Origin: Owenia fusiformis
Taxonomy: Eukaryota; Annelida; Polychaeta; Sabellida; Oweniidae
Assembly: GCA_903813345.2 (NCBI GenBank)
Contig: CAIIXF020000006.1
Location: forward strand, 27,287,936 to 27,351,935
Direction of reading: 5' to 3'
DNA length: 64,000 bases
Positions 52,521 to 64,000 of the stretch are shown here, one piece after another (positions within the stretch are counted from its first letter, which is position 1; each line of letters opens with the position of its first letter). The position numbers and the translations under genes are program-made. The notes under the pieces are model-generated. The model saw nothing but the letters and a program-made list of their open reading frames with translations. It was not told the DNA's origin and did no database searches.

Positions 52521-54540
52521 GGTGTTTTGAAAAATTGAACTACTTAGTAGGTTTATTAATAGTTTCAGGCGTCCTGTATTGTAAAAGCCCATGCCACTGT
52601 TAGCAATAGTTGTATTCGATAGCAAAGGTTATGACATACGAAAATCTTAATGTAAAAGAACAATTAATTTCTAATATAACTTTTTAAACACTTTATGTAA
52701 TGTGTACCTTATTTCCTTCCGATACAAATCATATGACTATAGTAGTTTCGTGAGTAAGATAGGAAGATGTGTGTGGTCGAGTACTGTAATTGATTAATCT
52801 TCTGGTTCTAAAACCCATGTAATAGAGGGTGGGCAGTTTTGCCCTACACTTGGGCCGTTTTGCCCCACTCTCAACATTATTTTTGACCACTGAAAAATCC
52901 CAGAAGATAGTCTTAGACAAGTATAAAACACTGAAAGTAAAACATCAAAGTGCGCGATGATTGACAGAAAAGAAAATGCCCCTACGGAACAACTTAAATT
53001 TTAATTTTGAGGGCCGCTTTGCCTAATGTTCCCCTTAATTGATCGATTTCATTCTGGGTAAATGCTGAGACTAACATTTTATGATGGTCTTAGGTAAATG
53101 TGGAGGAGGCCATTTTGGATTTTTGCTCATGAAATCTTGCCTCTGATTTAGCATTCAGGATGAAAAATCTATATTTATAGGGACATGTTCTACACATCTA
53201 TGTCCTTGTTTTCTCCGGGATTCAATACATGTACAGTGACATATCTAGATATTGGCCTCCCGGTCCTGACCATGGTTAGAATGACTTTTTATTGAGATTT
53301 CGTCAAGTATTTTGTTTATATTCTTGGCTACAAACCGAGGCTTCGAGCCTTATAATCGGTCCTAAATCGTCAAGAAGGACAATTCAGACAGAATACAATA
53401 AATCTATTCTTAGTAAGACTTCAATCAAGCAAAGGACACACTATGATTTCATTAAATAATGTTATATCTAATGCACGGCGGTGTATAACCGAAACGCGCA
53501 CGACGGAGCGTTTCATTACTGGCGGGCGGAAGCATTCGATGGTTATATGCATGTTTCACTTGGCTGGCTGATGACGTTTGAAGCAATTTGAAAGAGCTGC
53601 ACGAAGCAACTTATAGTTATCACAATTCATAAACGTATTTGTCATTCTACCGGTCAAAACCCCTTTTGCTGAGACATGTGATTACTGTAGTTGAGCCAAA
53701 TTTAGAGCATCGAAGTATATTTTGGTCAAATTTCCAAGCTTTAACGCAACATACATTATCGTAGTCGTGATTTTATGACCGAAAATCCAGTCTTAAAAAT
53801 GATTACATTCTCATATTCAAGAAACGCAGCGATCGGGTTTACATAGTGAAACGGAAATGCTGTGGTAGTCTAAGATGGTACAGCCTCTAGAGTTTTAGAG
53901 ACTTTAACTTCTAATGTTTAATGGGTACATCCACCAATGTTTCAGTGGGTACAGCATCCATAATCTAAGATTGATACAGCCTACATAGTCTAAGGTGATA
54001 CATCTTCTAGAGTCTAAGATGTCAAGAATCACCATTTTGTCACATAAAACATCAATCTGTGATTAATAAATGGATCTAGGATGGTACAGCCTCTAGAGTT
54101 TTAGCTCCAGGGTTTAGCCTGTAAGATGTCAAGAATCACCAAACGCATATCAATATTATCCAAACTTGTATTTGTTAAAAAAAATCATACACAAAAACTG
54201 TTCTTAAAGATGAATGTAATAAACAAATTTGTTTAGGAATAAGGATTGCCTGAAATGATGATTTACATGAAAGTCCTGACTATTTAATAAAGGAAAAAAC
54301 CATTTGTTCCTTTAATTTCAGTCCAAAAATAGAAAAATACCATAGTAAAATGTAATTTTAAAAATGATTTGCTTTATTTCAGATAAACAATTTGTAAATT
54401 GAACAATAACATTTACTTTATATTTGTACACTAAGTTATTGCTGTCGATATACTGTTTGCTAAAAATCAATTTAAAAGCACAGATTTCAATCCAGAAGAA
54501 ATGACCCCATGAATAATAATAACTATAGCGAACAATAACT
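52521..54540. other. Gene-free stretch with small local duplications
   Basis: No gene recognised. The piece 53,220-53,340 resembles 20,100-20,215. The phrases GATGGTACAGCCTCTAGAG and GATGTCAAGAATCACCA each occur twice between 53,870 and 54,140, a decayed local duplication. Confidence 0.5.
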
Positions 54541-55190
54541 GTTCGTATAGAAATTTCTATACGAAACAAGCTACCCACTCATAAAGTATCTCCTATTAGC
54601 TAGAGAAATGGCTGCATGCAGATACATTTCTATAGTGCCTCCGAATTCGATAACTGTGCATGTTCGTATAGAAATTTCTATACGAGGCGATTGCAAGCTG
54701 ACAATGCATATAGAAATATCTTTACAAGGATAATGGCTGCCTGTATAGAAATTTCTATAGCATCACTGATACCTGTCCGTATAGAAATTTCTATACGAGG
54801 TAAGCTGACAATGTAATAGTAATAAATTTACAAGGGGAATTTTTATGGTATACCCGAAAATTGTCCATATAGAAATTTCTATACGCAAGGTAACATTTTC
54901 TATGGAGATTTCTATACTAAAGGAATGGTTGCCTGTATAGGCTACCCAATAATTGTCTATATGGGAATTTCCAAACGAGGCAAGCTAACAATTTCTATAC
55001 TAAAGGAATGGTTGCCTGTATAGAAATTTCTATAGCATATCCGATATCTATCCGTATAGAAATTTCTATAGGAGGTAAGCTAACAAGTTTCTGTAAAAAA
55101 AATTATACTAGAGAAATGGCTGCCTGTATAGAAATTTCTATAGCATACCCGACACCTGTCCCTAGAATTTCATCTAGGAAGATCTATACA
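54540..55190. repeat. Array of eight identical 16-bp palindromes TATAGAAATTTCTATA
   Basis: Exact copies begin at 54,546, 54,667, 54,744, 54,780, 54,868, 55,019, 55,055 and 55,127, with more degenerate ones between. They belong to a larger unit that includes AATGGCTGCCTGTATAGAAA and GAGGTAAGCTGACAAT, but the spacer sequences and spacings vary more than the palindromes do. Each palindrome contains GAAATTTC, i.e. GAA-nn-TTC, the two-box core of heat-shock elements. Function unknown. It lies 0.5 kb beyond the 3' end of the ParB-like gene. Confidence 0.9.
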
Positions 55191-55545
55191 GGTAATGTGT
55201 GTAACTAAAACATGCATTCTCAAAGGAGCTTATTTTACATAGTTCATAGAACATTCCAAGTATATGATGAACCTGTCAATGAACAGTTTCTGCACATCAA
55301 AATCCTACGTTTGAACATGCTCAACATGATACACACTTTTGCTTTGTTCTCAATTGTTTTGTTGGTGATTTTCTGTCAAACCTCAGAAAAATAGATAGAT
55401 TTTACCTGTATAGTTCCAGTTTTCTCTGATTAATAGTCACTGAAATATCTGAATTCATGATAAGCTGAATTCATGGCATTTTGGAATCCCCCCGCTTTCA
55501 CTTAGAAAGAGCATAACTCCAGTGAAAGACAAACTTTTAAACTGC

Positions 55546-55558
55546 CTTTTATTTTATT
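55546..55558 (-). terminator. Possible polyadenylation signal of the ParB-like gene
   Basis: TTTTATTTTATTT on the plus strand gives AATAAAATAAAA on the minus strand, about 170 bases after the stop at 55,728. Weak evidence because the region is A/T-rich. Confidence 0.35.
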
Positions 55559-55727
55559 TGTAAGATAATGAGATTGTTGCTTCTGCAAATATATCACTTT
55601 AACACCAAAATCCCTTCTTCTGGAAAATTAAAAATCATGATTCATTGCACATTTAATGTATGAACAATTCTTACTTTCAAATTGTTCACTTTTAACAAAA
55701 TATGTCCAATGAAAAGTAACTATGCTA

Positions 55728-58700
55728 CTAAAGTTGACAAACCAAAGAAGATAAATAAGATAAAAACTGAGGGAAAGTGAAATGAGGGAAAGTGAATACA
55801 ATTGTCTTAGTAACAGCCTTAACGTATTTATTGTCTATGATTCGATACATATTAGGCGACACATCGCACACGTCTGCCTTGTCAAATTCATTGACCTTCA
55901 GCATTGGTGGCGTCAATTTTCCAACGTTGTTAATGTCTGCTTTTGCTGCAATTCTGCGAGCGCAATATGTGATCTTGTCTCCTTTTAACACAGCAAAGTA
56001 GATATCTCTTTCATATCTAATGCATATGACCTGGAACGAGAAGGACGATCATATAACATGGACGCTCTCGAGTCGTCAAAACTAACATAAAGGTTATACA
56101 TAAATTACATACATAAAACGTAAAATAAACTTATAATCTTGTGTTAAATGTGGAATTGGTTATAGCACCTTATTGAGAATTTAACTTGTATGTGGTTACA
56201 CCTGATTTACCTTTGGTTGTATCTCTCCAGAAGATGTGATGGTCGCTCGCTTCTCTAAAATACATTGTATACAGATATAACATATGTTCATGTAACGATT
56301 TCTCATGATATAATGTGTATATTCGATCAATATTTTTCTCTTTAACACGACTACTACCGTGTTCATTTATTTTCATTTATATGTCTATTTTGGAGAATAT
56401 AATCACAATATACTTTTGCTTCACTGTTAAGCTTAGATAATATAATCTTTCCAAACGACATACATAAACTGTATTGTTCTCATTCTGCTTTAAATTATAC
56501 CCTGCTATATGTTGATATAAAAAAGGTGGCAATTTTGATCTCGTTTAACCAGTTGCATATGATCCGTCCTAAGGCATCAGTATAATTAATACGAACCACA
56601 TTTTCCAACTGGTGTGTGCTTCCTCAGAAAATTACCTTTTTTGAAGCCATACTTTTGAGAAATAGAGGACTACTTACTTGAACTGCAAACTTTAGATATT
56701 TCTTGTACTGACTTCCTTTTGGAATCTGCAAATAAATTGTTGACAATTTTAGTACACATAAAGAACATAAAGAAAAAATTGGGCAATATCCTGAAATTAT
56801 AAAAGCAAAGCATATTTAGAGAGACAACTCATCAAGAAATATACTTGTCATATTCCAAGCAAAGAATTTTTCAGATGGTTTTGTTGGAAAGGAAAATAAC
56901 CTAGGGGTCGCATAATTTTCTAGCATGCCATATCAGTTCATTATATTCATGGAAGATAAGGACAATACAAATTGAATGTATATTTGAAGTTTTATTTCTT
57001 TTTTTGTCAAGACACGACTTTCCAAGTTTGGACCATCACATTCACTTTATTTGCATACTAAGACATTGCTCAGGCTAGAAAATGGTAGAATATAAAGAAA
57101 AGTAGGAAAATAAGCGGTCTTCTATTTTCTTCAACTCATTGTTAAACTTGAATATTCATCAGTTTTAGTGGTTTTCTATCATATTATATATCCATATGTA
57201 TATGATAGTTATACAAATTAAAATAAGTCTAATAATATAGGAATATCCTACGGTTTTGAAAAAATATCATTTATATCCATGAGTGGATATATCGATGAGT
57301 GGATACTGATATCTTCATGAGTGAGCGCAGCGAATATAATGAGTGAAGATATCGATATCTCTGAGTGGATATAATTGATATTTTTGAAAAACCATAGGAC
57401 TGTCCGTTTATTCCATGGGAAGTCTTAACCCAGCGAAAAAATTCTAAACCATCGAATATCACTTTTGAATCGATCGAATATTACTTTTTAAACCATCGAA
57501 TATCAATTTTCGAGAAGTGATATTCGATGTTTTTTTGGATTTTTTGCTAAAATATGATATCTTGATCCACATATCAAATATATCTTCACCTGATATTCGA
57601 TCTTTATCCTTGTAACCACGGGATAAAATAAAATATTATCTGGCCAATATAAGAAAATATATTTCACTTTTTATGATTTTATAACACGTGGTCTATGAAG
57701 GTTGTGTAACAGTGTAGTTTTGTATTGGAGCAGATCTTAACAGTTAAAATGTAGGAGGTTGGACTTCACTTTATTTAGATACTTACCCCGTTTATTTAAT
57801 GGTGGTATATCTTCATCCTCTTGGCCCAAGTTAGCTGAAATGTAATCGATCTTTATTATTATATAATATATACGAGGGTCGTTCAATAAATACCAAAACA
57901 AATGCTCTAATGTATTGACACTGTTTTATATTATTACTTGCTTTCTGATGATTCCGAAGTTACAGTGCATTTAAAAAATGTGTACAGGTGTACCTGAAGC
58001 AGTATTTTAAATTTCAAATGTCGCTTAAACTAGGTAGAGATTAAAATATTGGATTCTTGTAAAAGATGGATTGGATCAGACTAGTTTGACAAAAAAACGT
58101 TGCACAGTTTGAGAAACTATAGTAAGATTGTTACCTAAAGGTATTTCCACAGATAGCGTGTCATCATCCTCTAGAGTGGAAGTGAAAGTAAACGTATCTG
58201 CATTTGGAGTGATAGTCTTTTCTCTCATCTGGAAGTTATAAAAATGATCCATGTATATTATAGGTGCGGAAAATGTATGCAGTAAACATACAATCCCCTT
58301 CAACAATTTGAAAACCCTCCCAATCTGACTATTTGTAAAGCCTCCTAATAATTGAATCAGTGTTTACATTCCCTGCAATAGAAAGGATTTTATTATCAAT
58401 AGCCACTGGCGGATCCAGAAGCTAACAAAGGAAGGGAAGAGCAAATGCAAAATGAGATAATAAATCCGCGCTTCTTGGTTCATTTAAGTAGGGGGCTAGA
58501 TCCATCAGTTATAGCTGACCACTTTTCGATCAAAATGAAAGCCAATGGTGATCCAAAGATTACCTGTCGCAGCTCGTGTTCTAATGAGGCCACCCTTTGT
58601 GAATAACTCGTTGCTTTCTTCTCAATACACTCACGTGCGTCCTTCAACTTTCTACGCAATTCTACTTCCACTGCAATATGCTGACTTTTGATTTCATCAA

Positions 58701-61700
58701 CGTTCTGCAAATAATGATACGATCATTTTCATTTACATAAACAAAGGACAAAACAGGATACGTTGATAACTTATGTGGAATAGCATATACTTATATGGCA
58801 TTGAAATCATATTCATCGTACACTTTTAAACTCATTCAGCTTGATATCATACTAATTGTTACAATCACATTATCCGTGAATTGGATGACAAGATATTTCA
58901 GTAATATTAATGTTTCATTGTTCCTATAGATAGAACATACCCTTTCGTGTTTTCCTTTGACTTTGGTCAACTTCAATTCGAGATCACTGGCTATATTTTC
59001 CGCAGTACACGCCCTCTCCAATGCTTCATCTAACTGCCTCTCTAACTGAAAATCGGAAAAATGATATGCTGTTAAAAATAGTGTCGTTAAAGGTAAACTG
59101 TCAAGAAAAATTAAGTTGAACCATGTTTTCTCACCGTTTCTGTGCTACTAATAGTAGACATGGAATTAAGGTTAGTAAAATGATAAAGTTATACATTTTC
59201 GAGACTTTAAATGTTGACAATAACTACTTGAAGGATGTTGATGTATTTTTGTCAGAAAATGTACATGTTATACGTTTTTCTTTTATTTATCTTCAAAAAT
59301 ATGTAAAGCTTACCTTTTTGACGGTAGATATTTTTTTCTTTAGTTCAGACTGGAGGGCATGAACCAATGTATCTTTCGAATTTGTTTTCGTTCCAGTTGA
59401 TTGTTGCGCGTTGTCACTCTAAAATAAATACATTTTAAGTCCTAATGTTGCAAAGCTTATAATGAGCAATGCAAATCTACCCATTTAAAAGAAAATGCTG
59501 TGAACTGGTCCACAAGTACCATTCCATATTCGGGTGTTTGTTTACATGTATAATTTAACTGCATGTTATATGTAGACCAAAAGGAGAGTGGGAAATATGA
59601 CAGCGGTATATGACAGCGGTAATTGCAAATGTTTACCGTATGGTTCACGCTATCAATGCATCCGTCACTATCCTCCACATCTGCCTTCTTTGTATTCTGT
59701 GCTCTTGAAGAATTAGATCTGAAATAAATGAATATATACAGTGCAAAACAACTGAAAACAATGCAATAGAATATCGATTGTATAAAAATTGGGGATATGA
59801 GGCATAAAACAATAAATGAACGAATGACATGACATGACCTGACTCAACATCTAGGCTTACATTGTGGTGAAAAAATGGTATTTTATGTTGGAAATATCCT
59901 GCATCATAGAACACATGATCAGATTACAATGTAAGACTACAATGAAAGACTTTTCATAAAAAAATGTTTACACCAACCTTTTTTTCTGGCCAGGTTTCTT
60001 GATAGCGAGAAACTCTTTGTATGTTATCTCTCCATTGCTTGCCTTTTCAAGGTGTTGCCAGCAGTCCCTTGTAACATTTATCATTGCCGTTTGCTTTAAA
60101 GGTGCAGATGGTTGTCCCTTAATGTCCCCATTCTCCCATTTACTCAGGAAGGTGTTTACCACGTCCCATACATGATTCGGAAGCTCTGCTATCCGTGTGT
60201 AGTTCTGGAAACTACTAGAGAGTTTCTGCTTGTCCTTAAAATATAACATGAACGTGTAGAAAGATACAATAGGGAGTTCAAGCTTGCAATGTTTCTCACA
60301 ACCTAAACCTGAACGTAAAATATTAAAGCGATGCATTTCTATGGGCGATTGGTCATACGTATAGGTTGGCATTTAGATTTTACATGCAAGCTTAAACTTC
60401 TTGATAACTTACTGAAAACGTGAGATTGCATCATTTGGTAACATAATGCACTTTGAATGTTGATTATGAAACATATAAAAGAAGTATCACTGCTGCATCC
60501 ACGATACTTTCCCTTTCAAAATATATTCCAACAATGTAATTGTTAAATTGCACTTTTTTTGTCATTCTAGTATATGGTCTAGATTTATCAAGTTCGGTTT
60601 CACTTTATTCTTTTCAATTCGCGTTCTCTCAAAATCAGAGTTTATGAGCGAATTGAACTATTTTTTAAGACAACATTATATTAAACACTTTTATTGGGTT
60701 TTGTTCCTTATCGAATGCTATTTGATCATATTCATAATCATAGTTTACCTCTATCCTTAATATAGAGCATAGCGTATTCCTCCACAACGCGTTCACTGGT
60801 TTTGGCAATACATCTGGCACAACGTCCGTATCCAGAATCTTCATAAGTTGCCTTCTAAAAAGTTTGACCATGTCCACGTAGGTCTTCTTGAGATGCATTC
60901 CCATCACCTCATTGTGGTCCATGCCAAGTTTTAAGATTTGCGTGTTAGACAGGCCCCAATACACCTGAGGATTACATTATACTCTCAAACGTCAGTATTG
61001 TAGATTTTTAAAAAATGTAAGATATTTGAATAAAAATCACATTAATGTTTGGTCGATTCTATCAAGAAAAACATTCACTTTGCTTTCTCGTATTGTGCGA
61101 TGATGATAATAATTGATGGGGTTTGTAATATGTGCTCGCTGGGTATAAAAAGTAAATGATTATATTATATACTATTATATGCTTTGATTTTATATTATGA
61201 AAATACTTTAAACCATTACATTGTGACTTGAGAAAGGCATTATTCTTTACATTTTAGTATACCTTAATACACCATTTGCTGTATTTAGACTCATCACTGC
61301 AACCGTCTTTTTCGTGCAGCTTCTTGAGCGCTGCTAGGGTATGATGTCCTCCAATAACTTCAATTTTGTGAAGGCCTCCCTCCACAGCAGTTTTGTTGAT
61401 GGGCTTGGGAGACACGATGTTCCCCAACATTACAGTAAAGCTTGCATCTGGCCTTGCCTCGATGGACTTCATAATCTTATCAACTTGCCATTGGTGTAGA
61501 TCTCTCACTTTGTTGACTTCTGATGGCGATATCAAACTTTCTATCGGGACGGTGATGAAGTCACCTAAATAGTGAAGGTTCAGGGTAATGGACATGGGAC
61601 TTTGGTGATGAATTTGATGTAAGACCAAGAATGCTATGCATGAGTCGATATTTCGGCATAAGACAGATGAAACTTCATTCCCCGTAATAATTTTAGATCA

Positions 61701-62029
61701 AAAGAAAAAAGTAAGAAAATTATCAAAATGTATATAGTTTCCGTTTGCCCTATTATTATTAAACAATATGAAAAACAAAAGTCAGTAGAAAGCAGTAGAG
61801 CAGTAGAAAGCACATTGAAAAAGTGTAGAATTATTTTCATTTGTATTAAGTACAATATACACTGTTCCTTCGAAAATAAACATTTCAAAATCCAAACAAA
61901 ATGACCAGGGAACATACCAATAAGATGTGATTTAACCGCAAGATCAGTTTCTCCATTGACTTCTTTGCCTGTTTGTAAGTCTGAATTCATCGATGATTCA
62001 CCGTGTCCATCTTTTGGGACCGTTTGGAT
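55728..62029 (-). CDS. ParB/sulfiredoxin-fold and coiled-coil protein, 13 exons, 5' end incomplete
   Basis: Unnamed gene rebuilt from splice sites. Exons: 62029-61918, 61564-61263, 60964-60749, 60234-59978, 59718-59637, 59418-59314, 59045-58941, 58704-58564, 58228-58135, 57834-57787, 56725-56678, 56254-56211 and 56030-55728. All junction phases agree, giving 618 codons plus a stop. Residues about 38-190 look like a ParB/Srx domain: DFITVPIESLI, then EVIGGHHTLAALKKL (GGHH at 109-112, the GxHR-like box), then VYWGLSNTQILKLGMDHNEV as in ParB-type C-lobes. Residues 211-295 are of unknown type, about 296-440 a charged coiled coil, 441-518 acidic and basic linkers, and 519-618 an unrecognised module. 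The only start-like Met is internal to the first exon, so the true start is probably upstream. Enzymatic or DNA-binding function is not shown. Confidence 0.82.
57246..57399. mobile_element. Hairpin element TCCTACGG...CCATAGGA in an intron
   Basis: A 154-bp inverted repeat. TTTTGAAAAAATATCA pairs with TGATATTTTTGAAAA, and the inner part repeats GAGTGGATAT and GATATCGATATC. Related to 38,135-38,270. It lies between exons 10 and 11 of the ParB-like gene. Confidence 0.7.
57872..58025. mobile_element. Truncated mariner-like end
   Basis: ACGAGGGTCGTTCAATAAATA at about 57,872 resembles the outer end of mariner elements, followed by uninformative AT-rich sequence. No partner end was found. Located in the intron between exons 9 and 10 of the ParB-like gene. 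Confidence 0.35.
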
Positions 62030-62132
62030 CTGAAATTATAGTTTTGAAAAATGCAACGAGACCATCATGAAACGAATAAAACACATATGTTTAATGTTTA
62101 TATCTGACCAGAGTAAAACTTGGTTAATCTGG

Positions 62133-62278
62133 TAATGCCCGGGTCACATTTGCTCCGATCCATCGGCCGGGGCCCGGCCGATTGAGTGTTTAGCTCAATA
62201 TTGTATTCAATTTTGAACAAAATAGTCAATCGGCCGGGCGCCGTAGTGAAAATCGGAGCAAATGTGACCAAGGCATTA
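62133..62278. mobile_element. Complete TAATGCC foldback MITE
   Basis: TAATGCCCGGGTCACATTTG at the left pairs with CAAATGTGACCAAGGCATTA at the right, and CGGCCGGGCGCC-type GC-rich stems follow inside. 146 bp, noncoding. Upstream of the first confirmed exon of the ParB-like gene. A partial copy lies in intron 4 of hydrolase copy 3. Confidence 0.85.
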
Positions 62279-63617
62279 GGTCGGTTCAAGATTGTAAACG
62301 CACCCACATGCCACCTGTTTAGATTATGCATGAAGTTAGTTTAAGAAACGTTCTGGTTGGTTATCTGATCTGATGCACTTGAAATGTGTACAAATTAGAA
62401 TAATCGAGTTTTAGATTAATAATAATAGATTCAAACTAGAAATGCTCAATCGAGGTAGCAGTTGTCGTAAAATCTCACGAGAAGTTCGATTACACAGGCC
62501 CGTAGCCGGAATTAGCCAATGGGGGGCCGATTTCTTAAAAATATCAGGGGGTTTACTTTTGACAATTTTGTTTGAATATGCCGAAAATCACTTCAAAATT
62601 GATGAAAATGATTTAGACGATTTTTTCCAGGGGATGTTCGCACGACCCCCCCCCCAACCCCTTAAGCCCCCCCCCCCCCCCCCCGACCAAGGGCCTGATT
62701 GCATATAGAAGCAAGAGCCGAAAACCACGCCACTACGACCACATAATCACGCCTTCTTAGCTTTATATCTGTGCTGCACCTCCCCCACCCACACTCCCTC
62801 TTAGATTTTCTTTTAGACAAAACCCAATCTTGATATGGTTGAGCGGGGATTGATCACTTCACATAACCTTGTTCTTAATATTCGTAATATAATGCTTTAA
62901 CATATGTACGGGTATAAACATCAGAGATGATGTCACCTGTTAAACCTTTATATGTGTATTTTATGAAATTATAAAGGAATTAATTGAATTGAATGTATCT
63001 AATTAAAATTGTGTGCTAGGTGCTTCATGGGGTATCCAATGTAGCATGCCTGCTGTGCTGTTTCATTAAAGAGATACTTAGAGATTCCTTTTCAGATAGG
63101 TGTCAAGTAGCTGTTGTAGATTGAAGTCGTTAAATTATTTCTTGATCAGTCACAGTGATTATACTATTTTCAAGGTATTTATGTCAAGTGTCATTATCTC
63201 ACACTGCACACTTATCACTCCATAAAGTTTTGGCCTTTTGTTAGGGTAATCAACCTGTAATCTGTTGTAATGGTTTAGCGTTGTATTTCACAACACCAAC
63301 CTGTGCCTCTATGGCCACATGAACTAATCAGGTCAACTTTATTTATAAACAAACATTATTAAGGATGGACACGTAAATAAGCGCTGTTCAATGCAATGGT
63401 ATATTTTTCTGACAGACAATATTACAAAACCCAAGTGACAGTCGTCTCCTTCCAAGATCAGTATTCAAACCCAAACAATTAGCGCAAGCTCTTAATATGA
63501 TATGCTTGCTGTAAAAATCCATGTCTGTTTTAAGTAATTTTCTAAAGTATGGTTCTTTACGGTCTTCGATAGTGACAGCGATAATATATCACACATTGGC
63601 TCACTAAAGAATCTTAC
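62279..63617. other. Putative 5' intron or upstream region of the ParB-like gene
   Basis: No convincing exon found. Poly-C runs at about 62,646-62,685 create a proline-rich plus-strand open frame that is compositional. If the exon at 63,618-63,739 belongs to the ParB-like gene, a further small exon must lie in this stretch to reconcile reading phase. Confidence 0.4.
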
Positions 63618-63739
63618 CCATTAAATAAGATGTGTAGTATTGTTATAGAGCGATGTTTCCTCTTCACATCTGGTTTGGTAAGTTGAGACACCACGTGGCG
63701 ATGTGCCTCAGATGTCAAGCGCAAGCCACGAGGAGGCAT
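63618..63739 (-). CDS. Candidate 5' exon, 40 codons, of unknown gene
   Basis: An ATG at 63,739 opens a frame MPPRGLRLTSEAHRHVVSQL continuing through TKPDVKRKHRSITILHILFN, and ends at a GGGTAAGA donor (last exon base 63,618, phase 2). It is basic and has no family match I recognise. Orientation and position suit a first exon of the ParB-like gene, but phase 2 does not join directly to the phase-0 acceptor at 62,029. It may be a chance open frame. Confidence 0.3.
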
Positions 63740-64000
63740 TTTAGTTTAGATTCGAAATTCAACATAGAATGTTATTAGTTCTCCAGATAACTGCAAAGTT
63801 CTGATCAAATCTGATCAGCTCTGGAAAACTCAGAGTTTAAGTTGACAGATTATTTAGATAAGATGTAAGTTATGGGTTTGTCTTCTTGGTTTTAGTCTAG
63901 AGTGAACTCACTGTCCTCCTCTCATAGACAGATTGCAGTCTGTTTCCATGTATTTTTAAAGGCAAATATCTAGTGTTCTTTGAAGTATTCAAGACTAAAT

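Follow-up and report, generated by a model that had tools for sequence, protein, structure and literature searches.

To our knowledge, it is an open practical question how DNA transposons of very large size bring together ends that lie tens of kilobases apart. In bacteria, the parS site is a 16-bp palindrome, and the clamp formed by ParB, which depends on cytidine triphosphate (CTP), is characterized by a GERR box and an ENxxR box. The En/Spm transposon system depends on two proteins, TNPA, which binds subterminal repeats, and the transposase TNPD; its non-autonomous copies are mobilized in trans, and within a species both the repeats and the proteins presumed to bind them diversify (relevant sections of PMC2613891). 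A ParB-like gene inside a transposon is described in the brown alga Ectocarpus, where the 21.5-kb giant DNA transposon Sola1-1_Ec32 carries it opposite the transposase; the encoded accessory protein of 1104 amino acids (aa) contains ParB-like and N4-cytosine/N6-adenine methyltransferase domains, and the authors suggest that such ParB–methyltransferase proteins act on their own transposon by binding and modifying it (relevant sections of PMC12477816). The same sections cite Iyer 2011 and Petroll 2025 for ParB–methyltransferase proteins of green and red algal transposons. Among the matches listed by a literature search joining ParB and transposons, PMC12477816 alone was judged relevant, mostly by title. 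Here we analyze a 64,000-nucleotide stretch of the genome of the annelid Owenia fusiformis (the window; window coordinates run to 64000, and extended coordinates continue the same numbering past its end), in which a ParB-like gene lies within a giant transposon that has an array of a 16-bp palindrome immediately inside each end, and we suggest tentatively that its product helps to pair these ends.

Results

The ParB-like gene is part of a giant DNA transposon

The ParB-like gene lies on the minus strand and comprises 13 exons from 62029 to 55728. It had originally been presented as an undescribed animal gene; comparison with the genome shows that it does not stand alone but is multicopy and part of a 33.6-kb transposon. 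Based on the limits of its matches to copies A, B, and C and on the match between its terminal inverted repeats (TIRs), the whole element was placed at C6:27342206-27375846 (33,641 bp, unstranded); its part within the window is 54271–64000, and it runs ~23.9 kb past the window end to a right end at extended 87911. Copies A, B, and C match the window DNA at 98–99.8%, break off sharply at 54270/54271 and have unrelated flanks, and the near-identical copies are spread over three chromosomes. The left TIR (54271–54428, plus strand, 158 bp, with the terminus AAGTCCTGACTATTT) is 89% identical to its partner at extended 87754–87911, and a 4-bp target-site duplication (TSD), ATGA, flanks the element at 54267–54270. 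A TIR search of the genome yielded 25 ends, from which 11 pairs were examined and three ends were unpaired. A perfect 4-bp TSD was found in nine of the 11 window-type and D-type pairs, namely ATGA at the window element, TTAT at A, AAGA at B, ACAC at C, CTAG at C66, AAAA at C4, ATTA at C3, and CTAA and CATT at C2, and the fuller copies span about 28–36 kb. The inverted repeats, the 4-bp TSDs and the near-identical copies at unrelated sites identify the element as a class II TIR DNA transposon, and the identity of the copies suggests that it was recently mobile.

Three further copies are recorded here as observations. Copy D (C9:1336391-1364808) has both ends present, with AATT and TTAA at its flanks and no shared 4-bp duplication. 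At C12:35299751-35372280, matching ends lie 72 kb apart with no common TSD, and DUF7869 exons but no ParB-like match are found between them; this is perhaps a broken or compound copy. The 20.6-kb copy at C2:24861461-24882040 has both ends and the TSD CTAA, carries no ParB-like match, and looks like an internally deleted copy.

The animal nature of the host is borne out by Wnt (PF00110), a family restricted to animals, which has 42 matches over the cut-off in this genome and none in 14 control genomes. A probe of exons 2 and 3 gave 29 matches in the 498-Mb O. fusiformis genome. These included four window-type copies, that of the window among them, at 91–92%, five copies at 74–77%, and four at 46–50% in which exons 2 and 3 are fused; the rest consisted of weaker pieces and of hits to exon 3 in these same copies. 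The window's own match is below 100% because it extends into the intron. All four window-type and five D-type copies are bracketed by paired transposon ends that also enclose a DUF7869 gene, and their insertion sites differ. This placement argues against a host gene acting in immunity or genome defence, a role that had been proposed from the gene's domain combination and for which no support was found; we consider it extremely improbable, and a single-copy host gene is ruled out by the dispersed copies. The accompanying proposal of a captured mobile-element gene was half right, in that the gene does belong to a mobile element but still resides inside its transposon and has not been captured by the host.

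The ~30-kb size and the long inverted repeats would also suit an integrated virus of the Maverick/Polinton type. However, Polintons/Mavericks generate a TSD of 6 bp and not of 4 bp, the presence of a DUF7869 gene and of introns in both genes speaks against such an origin, and among the open reading frames (ORFs) scanned, none matched a polymerase, integrase or capsid family above the cut-off; two phage-named families at expectation values (E) of 0.2–0.3 remained far under it. We therefore give a viral origin almost no credence.

A DUF7869 gene lies head-to-head with the ParB-like gene

The second gene of the element is located on the plus strand at extended ~73.4–83.1 kb, beyond the window, and is oriented head-to-head with the ParB-like gene. 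Two of its exons match the Pfam family DUF7869 (PF25273) with 88 and 53 bits; Pfam names this domain as one of unknown function, and no paper was found in a literature search for 'DUF7869'. Among the loci with a long ParB-like match, 15 of 16 have DUF7869 within 35 kb, head-to-head in all 15 cases. These 16 loci comprise 13 from the probe of exons 2 and 3 and three more distant ones, with C12:30328545 being the one lacking DUF7869; left out of the 16 were seven shorter or decayed rows, C4:28.97 Mb and C3:8.57–8.65 Mb, with no DUF7869 within 35 kb. The converse fails, as many DUF7869 loci stand without a neighboring ParB-like gene.

A compact transposon containing DUF7869 was found at C2:2110126-2115562, nested within one copy of Element-2, a relative that is described below. 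It is 5,437 bp long with a perfect 29-bp TIR and the TSD AGTT, and the sister copy of Element-2 shows the matching empty site. Its ORFs encode a 576-aa protein with DUF7869 (32.7 bits), a 245-aa F-box protein and a 165-aa product. A probe from the 576-aa ORF gave 37 genome matches, some being parts of a single locus, and many lie in long intronless open frames. The TIR, TSD and empty site of this nested element support DUF7869 as a putative transposase.

Palindrome arrays lie just inside both ends of the element

The pattern search identified a left subterminal array at 54546–55142 (unstranded), in which the 16-bp palindrome TATAGAAATTTCTATA occurs eight times exactly, or 10 times when up to two mismatches are allowed; the exact copies start at 54546, 54667, 54744, 54780, 54868, 55019, 55055, and 55127, all within 600 bp. 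The right array contains 11 exact copies, the first at extended 87024, and begins at 86846 with up to two mismatches, while between the two arrays no copy was found even with two mismatches. Copy D carries 10 and 7 copies at its two ends. Many palindromes are paired 36 bp apart, and over 47 sites of the window element and copy D the core is nearly invariant and the flanks vary. Genome-wide, exact TATAGAAATTTCTATA occurs in 281 places versus three for the reversed pattern, and all 50 places listed, from C1 and part of C2, fall in elements with these or related ends.

Arrays of the same design were found in two other ParB-like families. Family 3 (C7:28.72–28.75 Mb) has the palindrome CATAGAAATTTCTATG, which differs from TATAGAAATTTCTATA in the outermost pair, in 10 and 7 copies with up to two mismatches; its terminal repeats are 92% identical over 543 bp, and its TSD reads TAGA by eye if the element is taken to end one base inward of the BLAST boundary. 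Family 4, whose ParB-like domain is only ~25% identical, has the palindrome GGTGTCCATAGACACC and variants in nine copies (up to three mismatches) and eight copies (up to four); the TSDs read by eye at both of its sites examined, C3:4.16–4.19 Mb and C7:31.73–31.76 Mb, are ATTT and TTCG, and a third site at C12:2.97 Mb was left out of the end analysis. Arrays of 16-bp palindromes at both ends are thus shared by the window family, copy D, family 3, and family 4, and the palindrome differs by family, as would be expected if it is read by a co-inherited protein.

Element-2 (C1:25432349-25440767) is 8.4 kb long and keeps the arrays, related termini and a TSD, CTGC; TSDs were seen by eye at both of its two sites, and the C1 copy contains no ORF longer than 116 aa in the 6.9 kb scanned. 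Without the insert, its features suggest a non-autonomous relative that was mobilized in trans. The C2 copy was considered as an array-bearing DUF7869 element lacking a ParB-like gene, which would have counted against a ParB-like reader of the palindromes, and was rejected, because its ORF belongs to the nested 5.4-kb insert, which is absent from the C1 copy.

The co-inherited reader could also be the DUF7869 transposase. In that case, the ParB-like protein might cleave or modify DNA, counter silencing or choose targets, which would be compatible with the ParB/sulfiredoxin fold, as its members include nucleases and nucleotide-binding enzymes. Every array-bearing, gene-holding family opened at both ends has its own DUF7869 gene, and the fusion of a ParB-like domain to a DNA methyltransferase in the brown alga (as described in sections of PMC12477816) also favors this alternative. 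On the other hand, the nested DUF7869-only element, the sole one of its kind examined and searched for perfect palindromes only, contains a single perfect palindrome and no array, and DUF7869 genes occur in many places with no ParB-like gene nearby. Taken together, we consider binding of the palindromes by the transposase possible but doubtful.

Both genes appear to be under purifying selection

The ratio of nonsynonymous to synonymous divergence (dN/dS) was calculated between the window element and copy D, with the output limited to runs of at least 20 codons with a ratio below 0.45. For the ParB-like gene, dN/dS was 0.03 in exon 3, 0.12 in exon 4, and 0.34–0.41 in exons 7–9; exon 2 had a dN of 0.14 with saturated dS, and exons 5, 6, and 10–13 gave no value. 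Antisense and short non-coding frames also fell below 0.45, for example 0.18 antisense to exon 2 and 0.28 antisense to exon 4, so that only the values of exons 2–4 are telling and the weaker ones prove little. The exons of the DUF7869 gene gave 0.01–0.10 in four blocks and 0.18–0.24 in three others. These values indicate that both predicted genes are under purifying selection, which is strong in the ParB-like core (exons 2–4). The ParB half tends to show the higher synonymous divergence, with values from 1.2 to saturation in exons 2–4 and of 0.5–0.7 in exons 1 and 7–9, against 0.13–1.0 in the seven blocks of the putative transposase gene; from this inequality, the two halves may have been exchanged between element lineages.

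The strong selection on exons 2–4 bears on whether the ParB-like gene is passive cargo that contributes nothing to transposition, and so does the same head-to-head place being kept in families only ~25% identical in the ParB-like domain; both speak against cargo, which we regard as quite unlikely. What cargo would explain is that copy B retains both ends and its TSD with a broken ParB-like gene, though this copy could have moved earlier or in trans, and that the 20.6-kb copy at C2 has ends and TSD with no ParB-like match. Giant transposon families can carry genes unrelated to transposases, according to sections of PMC12477816.

The N-terminal domain resembles ParB at the profile level

For profile–profile comparison by HHalign, eight O. 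fusiformis sequences, including two fragments, were set against a ParB profile of nine sequences, taken from Spo0J and eight phage loci. This gave P 2.7e-4 and a probability of 41%, and with five sequences P 1.1e-4 and a probability of 57%. The eight-sequence alignment is collinear, placing box I first, GG[HN]H against GERR (box II) and DHN against EN (box III); none of 200 column shuffles of this profile reached the score, and reversed controls were negative. The most distant member, from family 4, gave no HHalign signal for ParB on its own. PHROG 723, 'ParB-like partition protein', was weakly matched by four of five members, with a best E of 0.017. Two results count against ParB membership: no ParB model was matched by any of the five domain members in the Pfam scan, and the PF02195 search of the genome returned no match at E up to 10. 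The 618-aa protein matched no Pfam family over the cut-off; the PDB search returned one chance match at E 1.3 with the single sequence and none with the profile; phages gave one match at E 7 and plasmids two at E 2, chance level only; and pattern matches in viral and prokaryotic contigs yielded none confirmed as relatives.

GG[HN]H and DHN/LHN replace the GERR and EN boxes in all six full-length domain sequences. The profile comparison speaks for a probable relationship to ParB, the single-sequence and model searches against one; we therefore call the domain ParB-like and not a ParB. The residues of the ParB CTP box are not kept. The resemblance to the ParB/sulfiredoxin fold claimed in the original prediction is therefore retained at the profile level (HHalign, shuffles and PHROG 723) but not by Pfam or PF02195. 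Its GGHH box is present in exon 2 opposite GERR, but reads GG[HN]H across the members. The long coiled coil is weakly supported: residues 324–445 contain 39% D, E, K, or R and residues 359–443 a single proline or glycine, but the heptad test reached p <0.05 in only 8 of 29 windows. No methyltransferase match was found in the 618-aa model, and a methyltransferase partner was rejected, as a genome search for PF01555, the methyltransferase family of the brown-algal protein, gave none at E 0.01, other methyltransferase families not being searched.

Gene model and other features of the locus

The exon chain, rebuilt from the sequence, has AG at 13 of 13 acceptors and GT at 12 of 12 donors and yields 618 codons in a single open frame that ends in a stop, which bears out the 13 exons with consistent phases that had been predicted. 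That this is not due to chance also held up, given the low dN/dS of exons 2–4, the kept splice sites of copy D and the ungapped exons of copies A and C. In copy D, nine of the 13 exons were located (exons 1–4, 6–9, and 13), with splice sites conserved by eye, and no counterpart was located for exons 5 and 10–12. At the DNA level, the 13 exons are all gapless in copies A and C, with exon 11 at the join of two sequence pieces in both alignments. In copy B (C9:30691210 region), an insertion of ~0.38 kb with an apparent 11-bp duplication splits exon 8, and the other 12 exons are gapless. By these comparisons, the predicted ParB-like gene is real. Position 62029 is preceded by an AG acceptor, and the counterpart exon in copy D has no in-frame ATG; hence at least one upstream exon is missing from the model, and, as read from these sequences, the gene starts upstream of 62029 and its N-terminus is longer than had been described. 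Candidate upstream exons at extended 71–72 kb were unconvincing, with a best dN/dS of 0.44.

All exons are on the minus strand. In exon 1 of the model (61918–62029), no start codon was found, and it is actually an internal exon of the gene. Exon 2 (61263–61564), assigned from the exon chain and profile comparison, encodes the ParB-like core with the GGHH box (dN 0.144, dS saturated), exon 3 (60749–60964; dN/dS 0.03) a helical region and the DHN block that aligns to box III of ParB, and exon 4 (59978–60234; dN/dS 0.12) probably a helical domain. Exon 5 (59637–59718) is a linker. Composition and heptad analysis placed the start of the charged helical, coiled-coil-like region in exon 6 (59314–59418), and the region continues through exon 7 (58941–59045; dN/dS 0.41) and exon 8 (58564–58704; dN/dS 0.38), the latter being the exon split in copy B. 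They are followed by exon 9 (58135–58228; dN/dS 0.34), and, from the exon chain, by exon 10 (57787–57834), the basic exon 11 (56678–56725), and exon 12 (56211–56254). Exon 13 (55728–56030) encodes the C-terminal module and the stop and shares 31% identity with the corresponding exon of copy D.

Other features were noted in the element. The intron between exons 10 and 11 is AT-rich at 57253–57610, with short repeated motifs such as GATATC and palindromic pieces. A GC-rich imperfect inverted repeat at 62133–62279, ~78% self-complementary, recurs at extended 71862–72009 and 79579–79735 as well as close to the left end in copy D, and looks like a small foldback element. At extended 65268–65924, a 218-aa ORF with no family match has a cysteine-rich end resembling that of the reverse transcriptase of a long interspersed nuclear element (LINE); the stretch is absent from copy C and is therefore probably a nested insertion.

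Discussion

The explanation that we favor, at somewhat less than an even chance, is that the ParB-like protein is an accessory factor of the giant TIR transposon, which binds the palindromes and helps to pair the ends for the transposase, as TNPA does. In such a mechanism, a protein joining a ParB-like N-terminal domain to a helical dimerization region would bind the 16-bp palindrome arrays just inside both ends, its dimerization or bridging would bring together ends ~30 kb apart, and the paired ends would be marked for the putative DUF7869 transposase, as TNPA marks them for TNPD in En/Spm. Both genes point outward from the middle of the element, which puts an array beyond the 3′-end of each, so that a role at the ends fits better than control of the element's promoters.

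Several observations weigh against this end-pairing role. The transposase may itself be the reader of the arrays; copy B has both ends and a TSD despite its broken ParB-like gene; and the complete copy at C2:24861461-24882040 lacks a ParB-like match. The comparison with DUF7869-only elements covers one element and perfect palindromes; in the C12/C144 family, one copy meets an assembly gap and the family stands outside the array count; and Element-2, with arrays and no ORF longer than 116 aa, only shows that the reader acts in trans. At the protein level, no DNA-binding domain was identified in the ParB-like protein, and the coiled coil passes the heptad test in few windows. AlphaFold gave a low-confidence model of exon 2 alone, with a predicted local distance difference test (pLDDT) of 41; for exon 4, AlphaFold2 on the single sequence gave a pLDDT of 60 and six structure matches, none at E 0.001. 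Absence of the GERR CTP motif makes a true ParB sliding clamp doubtful.

More broadly, animal giant transposons may follow a ParB–parS-like logic, in which a ParB-derived dimer reads the end arrays, protein and site co-diversify, and the outcome is end pairing or a shield against silencing; we consider this generalization possible though unlikely as a whole. If the end-pairing role is true, a 30-kb element finds and pairs its ends through a dedicated ParB-like protein and family-specific arrays. With this locus, giant transposons that carry ParB-like genes, described before in algae, are seen in an animal as well, with no methyltransferase detected, and DUF7869 is linked to transposition with a 4-bp duplication, for which the empty site provides support.

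Comparison with bacterial ParB–parS reveals, by sequence, a likeness in the order of boxes I–III, in the helical part that follows and in the arrays of a 16-bp palindrome. It differs in GG[HN]H taking the place of GERR and in the Owenia gene lying neither on a plasmid nor at a chromosome origin; no ParA-like partner was noticed in the Owenia element, no search aimed at ParA being made. The Owenia element has AAGTCC termini and a 4-bp TSD, which set it apart from CACTA/En-Spm; Sola-1 transposons generate a TSD of 4 bp. In its architecture it resembles En/Spm, sharing a two-protein element, subterminal arrays, a family-specific motif and non-autonomous copies that keep the ends, as far as the relevant sections of PMC2613891 describe them. 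These sections also report differences, namely CACTA termini, a 3-bp duplication in the soybean element, and a soybean transposase and presumed binder that derive from one spliced gene, and they mention no ParB relation of TNPA. The green and red algal proteins likewise have a ParB-like domain in transposon accessory proteins, and differ in their methyltransferase fusion and algal hosts, as cited in sections of PMC12477816. With Sola1-1_Ec32, the likeness extends to a giant transposon with a ParB-like accessory gene on the strand opposite the transposase; by contrast, the Owenia protein has a helical, charged region and a different C-terminal module, its genome has no PF01555, and the sections of PMC12477816 on Sola1-1_Ec32 mention no palindrome array. 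The Owenia element, with no methyltransferase detected, is an animal counterpart of this ParB-carrying transposon of Ectocarpus.

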